From Aliiroseovarius salicola (GTDB lineage: Bacteria > Pseudomonadota > Alphaproteobacteria > Rhodobacterales > Rhodobacteraceae): a stretch of DNA of 64,000 bases. The notes beneath the pieces are model-generated. The model made no database searches, was not told the origin of the DNA, and saw only the letters and a program-made list of their open reading frames with translations. Below are positions 37,848 through 43,302 of this stretch, piece by piece. The translations under genes were made by a program, and so were the position numbers. The stretch is taken from positions 124,001 to 188,000 of the forward strand of contig NZ_JAQIIO010000002.1 of NCBI RefSeq assembly GCF_027891095.1, given 5' to 3'. Position 1 is the stretch's first letter; the number at the start of each line of letters is the position of its first letter.

Positions 37848-39139
37848 TCCGCGTCCTTGTGCTTGGGGCTTATGGTCTGATCGGAGCCGGGATCACGCGG
37901 CACTTGATTTCGCAGGAATATGAGGTGGTTGGTCTGGGACGCGAGGCAGCTACGGCCCACCGCCTCTTTCCCGATCTGGAATGGAGAATTGTCGATCTGC
38001 GAGAGCTGACCGACCCTGCTGCATGGGTGCCGGTTCTGGACGGTATTGATGCAGTTGTGAATTGCGCCGGGGCTTTGCAGGACGGGGCCGAGGATGACCT
38101 GTCAGCTGTTCATCACCTGATGCCAGCCGCACTTGGTGAGGCCGCTGCTGAACGCAAATTGCCCGTGGTGCAAATCTCCGCCGTAGGCGTGGCCCCTGAT
38201 GCGAGCACCGCATTTTTCCGCACGAAAGCTGAAGGTGACGCGGCCCTTTTGACATCGGGAACTCCGGTCTGGATCCTGCGCCCCGGATTGGTGATCTCGC
38301 AGCAGGCCTATGGCGGCACCGCTCTGATCCGCATGTTGGCGGCCGTACCCTTGGTGCAACCATTGGCTTTGGGGAAGACCCCTGTGCAATGTGTCGGCAT
38401 CGCAGATCTCGCGCATGCGGTTGATCGCGCCTTGAAGGGTGAGTTGCCGACGGGCACCCCAATTGACCTCGTTGAAGAACAGCCCCGGCCTCTGCGAGAG
38501 GTGATTGCCTTGCACCGCCGATGGCTGGGTTTTGCGCCGGCCCGGCTTTACCTCCCCCTGCCACGGATCTTGTTGCCGATATTGGGATGGGTCGCAGATG
38601 GGTTGGGACGTCTTGGATGGCGATCACCATTGCGCAGCACGGCGCTTGAAGTGATGAAAACCGGGGTTGCGGGAGATCCGGTGCCATATCGCAGGGCAGG
38701 AGGGCAAATCGCGTCCCTGGAGCAGCAACTGACCGCGACACCGGTTGGGACCGAGCATCGGCTGCAAGCGCGTTTGTCACTGCTCATGCCGCTGGTGCTG
38801 ATGGGGCTGTCGCTTTTTTGGATCCTGTCGGGTGTGGTCGGGGTGGTGTCGCTGTCAATGGCTGCAGAGGTATTGGTCGAGGCTGGATGGTCGCTATTTG
38901 CGGCCAAAGCTACGGTTTTGTTTTGGTCCGCAATCGACATCGCCATTGGGCTGGCAGTCCTTTGGCGCGCCCATGCCGCACGCGCCTGTTGGGCGATGAT
39001 TGTCGTCAGTCTAGTTTACCTTATCTCGGCCAGTGCTCTGGCACCTTCTCTGTGGCTGGATCCGCTGGGAGCGCTGGTCAAAGTGATCCCCGTGATCCTG
39101 TCGGCGCTGCTTTTGCGCATGTTGCTGGAGAACCGGTGA
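37844..39139 (+). CDS. NAD(P)-binding SDR domain fused to a DoxX-like membrane domain
   Basis: 431 aa. Residues 1-290 are an atypical short-chain dehydrogenase (complex I NDUFA9-like): VLGAYGLIGAGITRHLI for the nucleotide, then WILRPGLVISQQAYGG. Residues from about 305 form four transmembrane helices of the DoxX-like type (LLMPLVLMGLSLFWILSG and onward). This fusion is known in proteobacteria, but its substrate is not. It is joined to the DUF2339 gene by ATGA and to the DUF2269 gene by TGATG, forming a three-gene membrane operon. Confidence 0.87.
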   Translation: MIRVLVLGAYGLIGAGITRHLISQEYEVVGLGREAATAHRLFPDLEWRIVDLRELTDPAAWVPVLDGIDAVVNCAGALQDGAEDDLSAVHHLMPAALGEAAAERKLPVVQISAVGVAPDASTAFFRTKAEGDAALLTSGTPVWILRPGLVISQQAYGGTALIRMLAAVPLVQPLALGKTPVQCVGIADLAHAVDRALKGELPTGTPIDLVEEQPRPLREVIALHRRWLGFAPARLYLPLPRILLPILGWVADGLGRLGWRSPLRSTALEVMKTGVAGDPVPYRRAGGQIASLEQQLTATPVGTEHRLQARLSLLMPLVLMGLSLFWILSGVVGVVSLSMAAEVLVEAGWSLFAAKATVLFWSAIDIAIGLAVLWRAHAARACWAMIVVSLVYLISASALAPSLWLDPLGALVKVIPVILSALLLRMLLENR

Positions 39140-39612
39140 TGGACTGGCTGATCTTTTTGCGCTGGGCGCATATTCTTGGGGCCGCGGTCCTGATGGGCAC
39201 CGGGGCCGGGATTGCGTTTTTCATGGTGATGGCGCAACGCTCCCGCGATCCGGCACTGATAGCCCATGTGGCCGGCAGTGTGGTCGTGGCTGACACGCTT
39301 TTCACGGCCACCGCTGCTGTAATCCAGCCGATCACTGGCACGCTTTTGGCATGGGAGATGGGGTGGAGCCTGACCGAGCCTTGGTTGCTTGCCGGGATTG
39401 GGCTTTACCTGTTTGTGGGTCTGTTCTGGCTGCCCGTGGTCCGGATCCAGATCCGCCTGCGGGATCTGGCGCGACAGGCCGCGCAGACGAATACTCCATT
39501 GCCCGATCGCTATCACCAGCTTTATCGTATCTGGTTCGCCTTCGGCTGGCCTGCGTTTCTTGCGATGTTGATGATCTTTTGGGTGATGATCGCGCGGCCC
39601 GAGTTGTGGTGA
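39139..39612 (+). CDS. DUF2269 family membrane protein
   Basis: 157 aa. Four transmembrane helices; the N-terminus MDWLIFLRWAHILGAAVLMG with an intramembrane His is typical of DUF2269. The function is unknown. ATG 39139 shares a base with the stop of the SDR-DoxX gene. It ends 6 bp before dispersed element E. Confidence 0.87.
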   Translation: MDWLIFLRWAHILGAAVLMGTGAGIAFFMVMAQRSRDPALIAHVAGSVVVADTLFTATAAVIQPITGTLLAWEMGWSLTEPWLLAGIGLYLFVGLFWLPVVRIQIRLRDLARQAAQTNTPLPDRYHQLYRIWFAFGWPAFLAMLMIFWVMIARPELW

Positions 39613-39618
39613 GCCTTG

Positions 39619-39676
39619 AAGGGGCGTTGCGCCTCGGCCTTACGGCCTCACCCCAAGGTATTTATGGCAAGAAAAA
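39619..39676 (+). repeat. Dispersed two-hairpin element, copy E
   Basis: GGCG-tt-GCGCC-type hairpin inside GGGGCGTTGCGCC, then GGCC-ttac-GGCC, then TCACCCCAAGGTATTT, ATG and GCAAGAAAAAG. It fills the gap between the convergent DUF2269 and globin genes. Confidence 0.85.
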
Positions 39677-39684
39677 GCAGAATA

Positions 39685-40110
39685 TCAGGAGAGGCTGGGG
39701 GCTTTGGTTGCAGGCCGGTGCAGGTCTTCAACACCCAGTCGCAAGCCGCGTCCGATCCTATGGGCGAGGGCAATCCAGGGGCGGGCGGTTTGGGGGGGCA
39801 GAATTTCTGAAACCACCTCTTCGAAGAGCGCAAGCCAGGGGTCGAAATGCTCTGAAAAGACATTTCCTGCCTGCATATGTGCGCGCATCGGGTTGCCGTC
39901 ATAGCCGGGCTCGCGCAGGATGGCCCCGCGCCAGAAACGTGCGATCAATGCGATGTGTTTGTCCCATTCCGCGTCTGTTTCCCCCACATGCCCGTTGAAG
40001 ATCGGACCAAGTTCGGGGTGCTGGCGGATGCGGGAGTAGAATGTGTTCAGCACGCGGTCGATCTCATCACCTGAGATGTCAAAAAGCTGCATTGGATTGG
40101 GATGGGTCAT
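39685..40110 (-). CDS. Truncated haemoglobin, group III
   Basis: 141 aa from MTHPNPMQLFD. A 2-on-2 globin: DRVLNTFYSRIRQHPELGPIF holds the B9/B10 Phe-Tyr pair, WDKHIALIARFWRGAIL follows, and the proximal haem His is in PMRAHMQAG. The pattern and length fit group III, linked to microaerobic or NO handling in other bacteria. GAGGCGAG precedes the start. It is divergent from the ileS leader by about 110-140 bp. Confidence 0.88.
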   Translation of the reverse strand: MTHPNPMQLFDISGDEIDRVLNTFYSRIRQHPELGPIFNGHVGETDAEWDKHIALIARFWRGAILREPGYDGNPMRAHMQAGNVFSEHFDPWLALFEEVVSEILPPQTARPWIALAHRIGRGLRLGVEDLHRPATKAPSLS

Positions 40111-40219
40111 ATCTCGCCTCGTTATTCCGAGAGAAATAGTCGGAAAGAGGGGCGTTGCCAAGAGGGTGGATCAGGGCAATTCAGCGCAGCCCAACTGCGT
40201 TCTCTCCAGCCATCATGGC

Positions 40220-40248
40220 TTTACGCCACGCGCACGCGGGCCTATAAC
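40220..40248 (+). promoter_or_regulatory. Promoter of the ileS leader
   Basis: TTTACG (40220-40225), a 17-bp spacer and TATAAC (40243-40248). Transcription would start at about 40255, exactly at the ATG of the Ile-rich leader ORF. Confidence 0.6.
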
Positions 40249-40254
40249 GCCCCC

Positions 40255-40314
40255 ATGATGCGACATATGCCCATCATTATTATTCGAATTACATACCCGG
40301 CGCTCCTTGCTTGA
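40255..40314 (+). CDS. Ile-rich leader peptide of ileS
   Basis: 19 codons: MMRHMPIIIIRITYPALLA, ending in TGA. Codons 7-10 and 12 are Ile (ATC, ATT, ATT, ATT, ATT), far more than chance would give. It begins at or within a few nt of the predicted transcript start, so it would be translated leaderless. Downstream, CCCGGCG (40296-40302) can pair with CGCCGGG (40317-40323), or ACGCC (40316-40320) with GGCGT (40328-40332), or CCTTG (40305-40309) with CAAGG (40325-40329); these exclude one another. The layout is that of an amino-acid-sensing attenuator for the Ile-tRNA synthetase gene 78 bp later. Confidence 0.65.
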   Translation: MMRHMPIIIIRITYPALLA

Positions 40315-40392
40315 GACGCCGGGACAAGGCGTATGGACCAGCCGCGCCGCTCCTTCCCAAACATCCAGAAGTTTCCGAAAAGGACCGGACAC

Positions 40393-43302
40393 ATGTGTGC
40401 CGACACACCTGAATACAAAGACACGCTGAATCTTCCCGTAACTGATTTCCCGATGCGCGCGGGACTGCCCAAGCGTGAGCCGGGCTGGTTGGAGCACTGG
40501 AACAAGATCGGTATCTATGATCGCCTGCGTGAGAAGGGCAAAGCCGAGGGGCGCGAACCGTTTGTGCTGCATGATGGGCCCCCCTATGCCAACGGCCACC
40601 TGCATATTGGCCACGCGCTGAACAAGATCCTCAAGGACATGATCGTGCGTTCGCATCAGATGATGGGTCACGATGCGCGTTATGTGCCCGGCTGGGACTG
40701 CCACGGTCTGCCCATCGAATGGAAGATCGAGGAGCAATACCGAAAGAAGGGCCGCGACAAGGACGAGGTCGACGTGGTCGACTTCCGTCAGGAATGCCGC
40801 AAGTTTGCCGAAGGTTGGATCGACATCCAACGCGAGGAATTCAAGCGTCTGGGCATCACCGGCAATTGGGCTGATCCCTATCTGACCATGAATTTCCATG
40901 CAGAAGCGGTGATTGCCGAGGAATTCATGAAGTTCCTGATGAATGGCACGCTCTATCAGGGGTCCAAACCCGTGATGTGGTCGGCGGTTGAGAAAACCGC
41001 GCTGGCCGAAGCCGAGATCGAATATCACGACCACAAGTCGCACACGATCTGGGTGCCGTTCTCGTTTGCGAACGCCGAAGGTGATCTGGCTGAGGCACGC
41101 GTTGTCATCTGGACCACCACCCCTTGGACCATCCCGTCGAACAAGGCTGTGGCCTATAATGACAAGATTGCCTATGGGCTTTATCGTGTTGACGCGACCG
41201 AGGAAGAAAGCTGGACCAAACCGGGCGACCTCTATCTTTTTGCGGATGCACTGGCCGAGGATGCGCTGGGCAAATCCCGCGTGACCGAGTTCACCCGTGT
41301 GCGTGATGTAGAGGCGAGCGAGTTTGCTGGTCTGATCCTCAAACACCCGTTCCACGGCGTGGATGATGCTGAAGGCTATTGGGACTACGATGTGCCGATG
41401 ATCGACGGTGATCATGTGACCGACGACGCTGGTACGGGATTTGTGCACACCGCGCCCAGCCACGGTGCCGACGACTATGAAGCTTTCGTCAAACGCAACT
41501 GGATCGACCGCATGACCCACAATGTGGGTGAGGAATCTGAGTTCTTGCCCCATGTGCCGTTCTTTGCAGGCCTTCAGGTCTTTGACCGCAAAGGCAAGGA
41601 AGGCAAAGCCAACAACGCTGTGATCTCGAAGCTGGTTGAGGCGGGCGGTATCATTGCGCGTGGCCGCGTGACCCACTCTTATCCGCATTCGTGGCGCTCG
41701 AAAGCGCCGGTGATCTTCCGCAACACCCCGCAGTGGTTTGCATCTGTGGACCGTGAAGTGGGTGACGGGCAAGACGAGATGGGCACCACCATTCGTGCGC
41801 GCGCGCTGAATTCGATCGACAAGCTGGTGAAATGGTGGCCGCAGGCCGGTCGCAACCGTCTTTATTCGATGATCGAAGCGCGCCCGGATTGGGTGCTGTC
41901 ACGCCAACGCGCCTGGGGTGTACCGCTGACGTGCTTCGTCAAGAAAGGCGCGCTGCCGACGGACGCCGATTTCCTTCTGCGTGATGACGCTGTGAATGCC
42001 CGTATTTCCGCGGCCTTCGAGGCCGAGGGTGCGGACGCTTGGTACAAGCAGGGGGCTAAAGAACTGTTCATCGGTGACGCCGCCAACCCAGAGGATTACG
42101 AGCAGGTGTTTGACGTGCTTGACGTGTGGTTCGACAGTGGTTCCACCCACTCTTTTGTGCTGCGTGACCGCGAAGATGGCACCGAAGATGGGATTGCGGA
42201 TGTCTACCTCGAAGGCACCGACCAACACCGCGGTTGGTTCCACTCATCGCTTCTGCAGGCCTGCGGCACCAAGGGGCGTGCGCCTTACAAGAACGTGGTG
42301 ACCCACGGGTTCACGCTGGATGAAAAGGGCATGAAAATGTCCAAATCGCTCGGCAATACCATCGTGCCGGAGCAGGTGGTGAAACAGTACGGTGCTGACG
42401 TCTTGCGCCTCTGGGTGGCGCAAGCCGACTATATGGTTGATCAGCGTATCGGGCCGGAGATCCTGAAAGGGGTGGCCGACAGTTATCGTCGCCTGCGCAA
42501 CACGATGCGCTTTATGCTGGGCAATCTTGCAGGCTTTGATGAAAGCGAGCGTGTGGATGTGGCAGACATGCCCGAGCTGGAACGCTGGGTGCTGCACCGT
42601 CTGGCAGAGCTCGATCATCAGGTGCGTGAAGGCTACAAAACCTTTGACTTCCAGGGCGTGTTCTCGGCGGTGTTCAACTTTGCCACCGTGGATCTGTCGA
42701 GCTTCTATTTCGACATTCGCAAGGATGCGCTTTATTGCGATGGCGCAGACAGTCTGAACCGCCGAGCCGCGCGCACGGTGCTGGACATCCTGTTCCACCG
42801 CCTGACCACGTGGCTCGCGCCGGTCTTGACGTTCACCATGGAAGATGTGTGGCTCGAACGCTTCCCGGGCGAAGACAGCTCGGTCCACCTGATCGACTTC
42901 CCGGATACGCCCGCCGATTGGCTGGATGAACCTCTGGCCGCCAAATGGGCCGGGATCCGCCAGACCCGTCGTGTCGTGACTGCGGCGCTTGAGATCCAGC
43001 GCCGTGATAAGGTGATTGGGGCTTCGTTGGAAGCGGCGCCCGTGGTGCATGTACGCGATGCCGAGGTGCTTGACGCGCTGAAATCCGTCAATTTTGCAGA
43101 TGTATCGATCACCTCGCAGGTGGTGCTGACCAATGATCCCCTGCCGGCCGAGGCGTTCCGCCTCCCGGAAGTGGAAGGGGTTGGCGTGGTGTTTGAAAAA
43201 GCATCAGGTGAGAAATGCCAGCGCTGCTGGAAGATCCTGCCGGATGTGGACAAACACGACCATGCAGGCACCTGCGGTCGCTGCGACAGCGCGCTGGGTT
43301 GA
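40393..43302 (+). CDS. ileS: Isoleucyl-tRNA synthetase
   Basis: 969 aa class I synthetase that charges tRNA-Ile and edits valine. HIGH motif at residues 71-74 (NGHLHIGHAL), KMSKS near residue 646 (GMKMSKSLGN), the editing-domain block WTTTPWTIPSNKAVAYND, and a C-terminal zinc finger with CQRCWKILPD and CGRCDSALG. ATG 40393 (MCADTPEYKD) is preceded by AAGGA at 9 nt; an in-frame ATG at 40333 would put the start within the leader structures. A strong terminator follows the stop. Confidence 0.96.
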   Translation: MCADTPEYKDTLNLPVTDFPMRAGLPKREPGWLEHWNKIGIYDRLREKGKAEGREPFVLHDGPPYANGHLHIGHALNKILKDMIVRSHQMMGHDARYVPGWDCHGLPIEWKIEEQYRKKGRDKDEVDVVDFRQECRKFAEGWIDIQREEFKRLGITGNWADPYLTMNFHAEAVIAEEFMKFLMNGTLYQGSKPVMWSAVEKTALAEAEIEYHDHKSHTIWVPFSFANAEGDLAEARVVIWTTTPWTIPSNKAVAYNDKIAYGLYRVDATEEESWTKPGDLYLFADALAEDALGKSRVTEFTRVRDVEASEFAGLILKHPFHGVDDAEGYWDYDVPMIDGDHVTDDAGTGFVHTAPSHGADDYEAFVKRNWIDRMTHNVGEESEFLPHVPFFAGLQVFDRKGKEGKANNAVISKLVEAGGIIARGRVTHSYPHSWRSKAPVIFRNTPQWFASVDREVGDGQDEMGTTIRARALNSIDKLVKWWPQAGRNRLYSMIEARPDWVLSRQRAWGVPLTCFVKKGALPTDADFLLRDDAVNARISAAFEAEGADAWYKQGAKELFIGDAANPEDYEQVFDVLDVWFDSGSTHSFVLRDREDGTEDGIADVYLEGTDQHRGWFHSSLLQACGTKGRAPYKNVVTHGFTLDEKGMKMSKSLGNTIVPEQVVKQYGADVLRLWVAQADYMVDQRIGPEILKGVADSYRRLRNTMRFMLGNLAGFDESERVDVADMPELERWVLHRLAELDHQVREGYKTFDFQGVFSAVFNFATVDLSSFYFDIRKDALYCDGADSLNRRAARTVLDILFHRLTTWLAPVLTFTMEDVWLERFPGEDSSVHLIDFPDTPADWLDEPLAAKWAGIRQTRRVVTAALEIQRRDKVIGASLEAAPVVHVRDAEVLDALKSVNFADVSITSQVVLTNDPLPAEAFRLPEVEGVGVVFEKASGEKCQRCWKILPDVDKHDHAGTCGRCDSALG

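Follow-up and report, generated by a model that had tools for sequence, protein, structure and literature searches.

A probable isoleucine-sensing leader peptide upstream of ileS in Aliiroseovarius salicola and its distribution in Alphaproteobacteria

Isoleucyl-tRNA synthetase (IleRS) is an essential enzyme on which inhibitors including mupirocin act. In Aliiroseovarius salicola, its gene ileS lies on the plus strand at 40393..43302 of the window, by which is meant the whole 64,000-nucleotide stretch of DNA analyzed here (contig NZ_JAQIIO010000002.1, positions 124,001 to 188,000). The gene starts with the ATG at 40393 and is assigned by Pfam PF00133 (E 3.5e-124) and TIGR00392 (791.6 bits over cut-off), the best match of its product being the IleRS of Aliiroseovarius crassostreae (92 percent). 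An initial annotation described a short open reading frame (ORF) with a run of isoleucine codons ahead of ileS, together with competing hairpins, and regarded the region as a candidate isoleucine-sensing attenuator. Does this leader respond to isoleucine, and by which route would the signal reach ileS? The comparisons described below indicate that the 5' leader is probably a ribosome-read sensor of isoleucyl-tRNA charging, the sensed tRNA being charged by the product of the adjoining gene. Comparison between loci gives good support to the Ile-sensing half of the interpretation but none to a terminator/antiterminator output.

Promoter and leader open reading frame

The window was compared with the upstream DNA of its IleRS relatives in a close set of 81 loci, namely the window and the best 80 of 596 relatives; nearly all bear names of Rhodobacterales or Rhodobacteraceae genera, and two are named Alphaproteobacteria only. 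The promoter on the plus strand at 40220..40248 is located as initially annotated, with TTTACG at 40220-40225 and TATAAC at 40243-40248, separated by 17 nt. A strict-consensus promoter scan of the window's leader region returned no match. In the close set, the spacing between the -35 and -10 boxes is 17 nt at 80/81 loci (the best of 16-18 was chosen), the -10 box reads TATAAG or TATAAC at 71/81, and the -35 box reads TTTAC[CG] or TGGAC[CG] at 66/81. On the minus strand, divergent from ileS, the frame at 39685-40161 appears truncated haemoglobin-like by eye, with no Pfam match at E 1e-5.

The leader ORF, 40255..40314 on the plus strand, encodes MMRHMPIIIIRITYPALLA and ends with the TGA at 40312-40314. 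Counterparts of this peptide are present upstream of ileS in 80/80 aligned close relatives (best 80 of 596). The first ATG past the -10 box shares the reading frame of the heptamer CGAATTA, the core of the leader, in 78/78 testable loci of the close set, which are those remaining after two loci with GTG instead (L063 and L067) and one with a variant core (L046) are subtracted from the 81. The frame is kept at every ATG-to-core distance found, that is, 21, 24, 27, 30, and 39 nt, and the ORF originally read from ATG 40255 is correct. Leader stop codons differ in kind and location across the close set. Since the frame is kept, the stops vary and, as described below, the Ile codons exchange synonymously, the conserved entity appears to be a translated peptide and not a bare nucleotide motif.

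It should be noted that ATG 40255 lies 12 nt past the first T of the -10 box, which is the expected +1. The first ATG is 12 or 13 nt from that T in 64/78 testable loci, so that by promoter geometry +1 falls on the ATG or no more than 1 nt from it. Because the in-frame ATG sits at the expected transcript start in these 64 loci, the leader ORF is probably leaderless. The transcript start formerly assigned to 40255 accords with the conserved geometry in coinciding with the ATG; as a position, it is deduced from the promoter.

Isoleucine codons, the CGAATTA core and their distribution

The putative regulatory Ile codons occupy 40273..40290 on the plus strand and read ATC ATT ATT ATT (CGA) ATT, as correctly identified at the outset. 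Across the 81 loci, Ile is encoded at codons -3, -2, -1, and +1 around CGA in 78, 88, 85, and 100 percent, respectively, and at codons -3 to -1 ATC, ATT, and ATA interchange with Ile retained. At least four of the seven codons specify Ile in 60/81 loci, one or two in 8/81. The Ile run has been lost in some of the window's family, for example in L071, L082, and genus g7, where the core is retained. Elsewhere, among 53 loci from other families, the seven core codons hold one or two Ile in 36, three in 12, and four in 5. The initial annotation had proposed that Rhodobacterales ileS upstream regions be aligned, and held that a lack of Ile-rich ORFs in orthologous leaders would speak against sensing; the alignment recovered an Ile-codon ORF at varying distance, and such ORFs are present in the orthologs.

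The heptamer CGAATTA itself (40285..40291, plus strand) is nearly invariant, and its AUU codon at 40288-40290 begins 8 nt 5' of the hairpin H1 described in the following section. It is intact in 80/81 close-set loci, with CTAATTA in the low-GC locus L046, and sits 96-140 nt 5' of the start of the IleRS match; CGA is found in 80/81 and ATT in 81/81. Codon use within ileS is different, with CGA accounting for 2/64 Arg codons and ATT for 9/40 Ile codons against 31 ATC. As judged from sequence, the near-fixation of CGA, and of AUU in preference to AUC, reflects a constraint on the nucleotides beyond the needs of Ile sensing or of the peptide. The window's genome contains the exact core pattern a single time.

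Variation of the core was inspected in 43 genomes, consisting of 42 genomes of the order without the exact pattern plus G003, a survey locus introduced below. A leader ORF lies 12-14 nt after a -10-like box in 40/43; where several candidates existed, the ranking preferred an I..P peptide. The Ile position is ATT in 38 of the 40 ORFs by script, and L290 and L291 have CGA ATT in another register. In genus g4, whose peptides resemble MLRQMIISIICPAA or MMYRMIIAIICPAV, the Arg position is Ser, Ala, Thr, Asp or CGC-encoded Arg, the codon before AUU being AGC, GCC, GCT, ACC, GAC or CGC, and the following Ile codon is always ATT. The Ile codons preceding the Arg position are mostly kept in this genus, with exceptions among them in L265 and L266. 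Further core variants that retain Ile are QIG in L210, RII with ATC in L145, GIS in L190, and LII in L046. Because the variants change CGA and keep Ile, the AUU/Ile codon 8 nt 5' of H1 is the most constant feature of the leaders compared, and Arg at the core is apparently not needed.

The pattern CGAATTANNNNCCCGGC was found in 347/390 genomes of the order, covering 136/139 genera, against 8/390 for the reversed control. In the class, 83/385 genomes matched, a rate that includes chance matches since the reversed pattern also matched 19/385. Inspection of 20 class loci with the pattern placed nine upstream of ileS, one inside ileS (a chance match), and seven before other genes; the remaining three were unrelated or unclear. 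A motif-independent survey was also conducted, in which upstream regions were taken by ileS position from the 335/385 class genomes with an ileS match. It covered 140 of about 150 listed loci, and because the best-scoring were taken first, it favors relatives of the window; one of the 140, G003, belongs to the window's own family.

In this survey, CGAATTANNNNCC (the core CGAATTA-N4-CC) was located approximately 69-393 nt 5' of ileS in 53/140 loci, representing 26/70 families, none of them the window's. An in-frame open ATG leads to the core in 53/53 of these loci, compared with 5 and 10 for the other two frames; when a stop within 15 codons is also demanded, the core frame gives 49 (4/53 have no such stop) against 1 and 7. 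The typical leader C-terminus in these families is RI(I/T/S)xP(A/V) followed by a few residues. Four further survey loci, including G003, likely carry core variants. Of the 87 loci that lack the exact core, a crude filter for a ribF-like frame upstream retained 67; its hits are by eye mostly RibF ends and in some cases false. In the ribF-preceded loci ileS appears to follow ribF without a leader of its own, and this proportion suggests that the leader and an own promoter go together. The compared genomes thus show a leader of broad occurrence in Alphaproteobacteria, present chiefly where ileS has a promoter to itself; its range exceeds what the initial annotation suggested.

Two loci of family f42, L220 and L238, show a RibF-like frame whose end reads CGAATTACCGCC...TGA, 134 and 140 nt before ileS, and lies within a hairpin CGTCGGC/GCCGACG by eye, an arrangement that resembles the leader element. 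RibF C-termini were considered as an origin of the leader and discarded, the resemblance being only scattered.

Hairpins and the search for an output

Hairpin H1, CCCGGCGCUC/GAG(A)CGCCGGG, spans 40296..40323 on the plus strand. The leader stop lies between its arms CCCGGCG (40296-40302) and CGCCGGG (40317-40323), exactly as described previously. A second hairpin, H3 (GGCG..UGG/CCGCGCC), spans 40328..40348 on the same strand and is backed by covariation in the close set. Covariation was evaluated on 80 distinct close-set sequences with 500 shuffles, versions of the hairpins slid along the alignment serving as a second control. For H1 (40296-40305 with 40313-40323), 96.1 percent of cells are paired and 5/10 pairs show changes on both sides; for H3 (40328-40336 with 40342-40348), the values are 88.6 percent and 5/7, including C-G to U-A exchanges in 18 sequences and G-C to A-U in 26. 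When both hairpins are taken together, 0/500 shuffles attain any of five measures. Their pairing of 93.0 percent and covariation score of 0.151 exceed those of slid versions (no higher than 44.8 percent and 0.070, respectively), while for pairs changed on both sides the count of 10 falls within the 6 to 11 that slid versions give.

H1 can also be followed in other families. CCCGG is fully paired within 85 nt in 41/53 core loci, leaving 12/53 without a full partner. At the next four H1 pairs, 135/164 cells are paired against a shuffle mean of 119.6 (maximum 130, 1000 shuffles), and with one locus per family the result is 74/84 against 64.8 (maximum 71). Stems of 7 bp occur in 37/53 core loci outside the family, compared with 10/173 other CCCGG sites. 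The predicted minimum-energy fold of the window's leader contains H1 and H3 together (z -1.72), and the predicted centroid fold contains H1, with another pairing in place of H3. Mutually exclusive hairpins were looked for by covariation in the close set and none were supported; since H1 and H3 can coexist, no conserved switch between exclusive structures was found. The check for covarying hairpins suggested initially was borne out for the first hairpin, which is conserved, covaries, and holds the stop codon. It did not favor the proposed competitors, and a different second hairpin, H3, compatible with H1, is the one conserved.

Downstream of H3, the linker at 40349..40380 (plus strand) is C-rich and G-poor in base composition and might serve as a Rho loading region. 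The stretches from core+70 to ileS, pooled over the 81 loci and including the Shine-Dalgarno sequence, contain 34.8 percent C and 19.7 percent G, compared with 29.4 and 32.4 percent in DNA upstream of the promoters, and C exceeds 1.5 times G at 56/81 loci. The Shine-Dalgarno sequence of ileS is AGGA at 40381..40384 on the plus strand, and AGGA is present in 70/76 ATG-start loci. A scan for intrinsic terminators on the plus strand at 40150-40420 was negative, with no U-run, in agreement with the lack of a U-run reported initially. At least five T within the 10 nt past H1 occur in 2/79 close-set loci and in 4/41 loci of other families. An intrinsic terminator was accordingly discarded as the output in the window's group. 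A T-box or another Rfam family was discarded as well: Rfam gave no T-box in the window at 39000-41500, where the lone match was a sub-threshold lncRNA outside the leader, and 20 related loci searched at E 0.5 gave no match of any kind.

Several explanations other than a ribosome-read sensor of the kind favored here deserve to be weighed against these data. The initial annotation envisaged a classical attenuator, in which ribosome stalling would favor the hairpin 40296-40323, and finished translation would favor ACGCC/GGCGT and CCTTG/CAAGG, giving termination. The complementary stretches do exist in the window, ACGCC/GGCGT can pair in 76.7 percent of cells, above slid versions (28.2 to 71.6 percent), and a few leaders of other families do have the T-rich tail counted above. 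However, the pairing of ACGCC/GGCGT and its covariation score of 0.107 equal the shuffle control (76.2 percent and 0.110), as expected if the arms are conserved because of H1 and H3, and CCTTG/CAAGG, although present in the window, is not conserved in the alignment, the nearest relative L005 having GCGAAC in place of CTTGCT. The alternative-hairpin scheme is thus without comparative backing, the window has no U-run, T-rich tails are rare in the close set, and such an attenuator is unlikely. Masking of the ileS ribosome-binding site by leader structure unless the leader ribosome stalls would represent translational control, and the prediction that AGGA is largely paired (mean unpaired value of 0.36 across 76 loci) is consistent with this. 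Its predicted partners are nevertheless scattered, lying in the linker in 27 of the 76 loci, the coding region in 21, near the Shine-Dalgarno sequence in 12, H3 in 8, and the leader in 2, with AGGA mostly unpaired in 6. In 70 paired loci, the unpaired value of 0.32 barely differs from the 0.35 of shuffled linkers, being lower in 39/70. With no common partner for AGGA and little difference from shuffled linkers, a sequestered ribosome-binding site was set aside, and control by this route seems quite unlikely.

The similar C-terminal peptide across the 26 core-bearing families might be thought to reflect nascent-chain arrest, whereby RI(I/S/T)xP(A/V) would stall the ribosome near the stop codon in response to a metabolite. 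Genus g4, in which Ser, Ala, Thr or Asp stands in place of Arg, led to rejection of an arrest peptide for this leader, and since the residue after Pro also varies with the hairpin arm and the Pro-to-stop distance is not constant, this explanation is very improbable. A more serious competitor, though a doubtful one, holds that CGAAUUA and H1 form an RNA element in their own right, a site for RNase E or a protein, so that translation only gates access and the presence of an Ile codon follows largely from the AUU sequence. It would account for a CGA and an ATT that are almost fixed against the codon preferences of ileS, and for the persistence of the core in leaders that no longer have the Ile run (L071, L082, and genus g7). 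RNase E is described as favoring AU-rich sites in Rhodobacter (PMC6238624) and a uridine two nt downstream in Salmonella (PMC5222698), which would also suit such an element. Against it, the heptamer is broken before AUU in genus g4 while Ile codons remain, L145 carries the synonymous AUC, the codons of the Ile run interchange synonymously, and the frame is conserved at every spacing.

Proposed mechanism and known systems

Sensing of isoleucyl-tRNA charging by a translating ribosome is the reading preferred here, and it would proceed as follows. Transcription would start at or beside the leader ATG, as the conserved promoter geometry implies, and a ribosome would translate to the fixed AUU, which comparison shows to lie 8 nt 5' of H1, the hairpin holding the leader stop. 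When Ile-tRNA is ample, the ribosome would pass AUU, terminate inside H1, and depart; after its release, H1, and in the window's group H3, would form again, with the AU-rich heptamer and also the C-rich linker left exposed. When Ile-tRNA is scarce, the ribosome would wait at the Ile codon, shield CGAAUUA, and hold the H1 5' arm in its channel, and ileS expression may rise as a result. Counted from the first P-site base, the footprint of a ribosome reaches about 15 nt. With AUU (40288-40290) in the A site, it would then extend to about 40300, holding the H1 5' arm and covering CGAAUUA, and a ribosome halted at the initial Ile codon of the run would cover neither H1 nor the complete heptamer. 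The earlier premise that stalling favors H1 is doubtful, because a ribosome at the constant AUU would cover the H1 5' arm; it would hold for the first Ile codons, where stalls cover less, but not for the last. The upstream Ile run in most of the window's group would be expected to make the sensor more sensitive.

The likeliest output in the window's group would be either termination by Rho or cutting of the exposed leader by RNase E. The C-rich, G-poor stretch from H3 to ileS would suit Rho, and CGAAUUA is AU-rich, with a U correctly placed for RNase E. As a tentative reading, sensing might consist in protection of the near-invariant CGAAUUA beside H1 from a nuclease or other factor and not in a terminator switch; the leader could then be an old alphaproteobacterial sensor with a leaderless peptide and a single fixed AUU, which the window's group may have extended to an Ile run.

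In the enterobacterial pheST, trp, and his attenuators, leader-peptide codons for the regulated amino acid are read by the ribosome. The ileS leader shares cognate codons with them and differs in showing no conserved antiterminator/terminator pair, no U-run, and an ATG at the predicted transcript start. T-boxes, by contrast, bind tRNA directly without a leader peptide. Translational T-boxes are reported to control actinobacterial ileS (PMC1262725), an instance, like the present one, of RNA control in an ileS leader, but the leader studied here has no Rfam match. Another resemblance is to the uORFC-8-2 motif in the cysS leader of Rhodobacterales, described with features of a ribosome-mediated attenuator (PMC8632094). 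Both occur in Rhodobacterales, precede an aminoacyl-tRNA synthetase gene, and combine an upstream ORF of cognate codons with two stems. The described motif has two Cys codons, a terminal U-run, and a modelled intrinsic terminator (PMC8632094), whereas the ileS leader has Ile codons and, in the window, no U-run, appears to be leaderless, and extends well outside the order. In Sinorhizobium meliloti, trpL (rnTrpL) is described as a leaderless, translated leader-peptide ORF, likewise in an alphaproteobacterium; it differs in serving Trp biosynthesis and in being an attenuator that doubles as a small RNA (PMC10117765).

The claim that no ileS leader had been described in alphaproteobacteria requires amendment. 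An "ileS leader CDS (CCNA_03934)" of Caulobacter crescentus is named in a study that mapped coding sequences by ribosome profiling, RNA-seq, and 5' RACE (PMC4117421); like the window's leader, it is a small leader coding sequence before ileS in an alphaproteobacterium. The likeness is one of name; the passages in which it appears introduce it as a negative-control insert and give no Ile codons, hairpin or mechanism (PMC4117421). As regards mechanism, searches among open-licence PMC papers yielded no described ileS leader mechanism or ileS control in alphaproteobacteria. In Methylorubrum, the ileS transcript start has been mapped 150 nt upstream, after TAGAAG and 7 further nt (PMC9320726). A search for this -10 element in family f70 matched 30/119 genomes, and the 14 places inspected had no leader core. 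The leader described here is short, composed of AUG, AUU, heptamer, H1, and H3, with a core identical in 26/70 surveyed families. With it, the known synthetase leaders would gain a leaderless design free of a terminator, and the role of the Caulobacter leader coding sequence might be accounted for.

The core was also encountered before genes other than ileS. In four loci of one genus (L105, L106, L107, and L108), CGAATTA-N4-CCCGGCC at approximately 1501-1518 precedes a protein of 170-177 aa; an in-frame leader ends in RI(S/T)xPA followed by the stop, which is contained in the hairpin, and the proteins of L105 and L107 have no Pfam match above cut-off and weak NTF2-like matches. In L098 (minus strand), L104, and L109, also at approximately 1501-1518, the core and an in-frame leader stand before a short protein. 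A second downstream frame looks NUDIX-like by eye in L098 and L104, neither of whose short proteins has a Pfam match. The L109 protein is weakly ACT-like (PF13710, E 0.09, below cut-off), and a T-rich tail lies 3' of the hairpin at this locus. A link of the core in L098, L104, and L109 to branched-chain amino acid control is possible.
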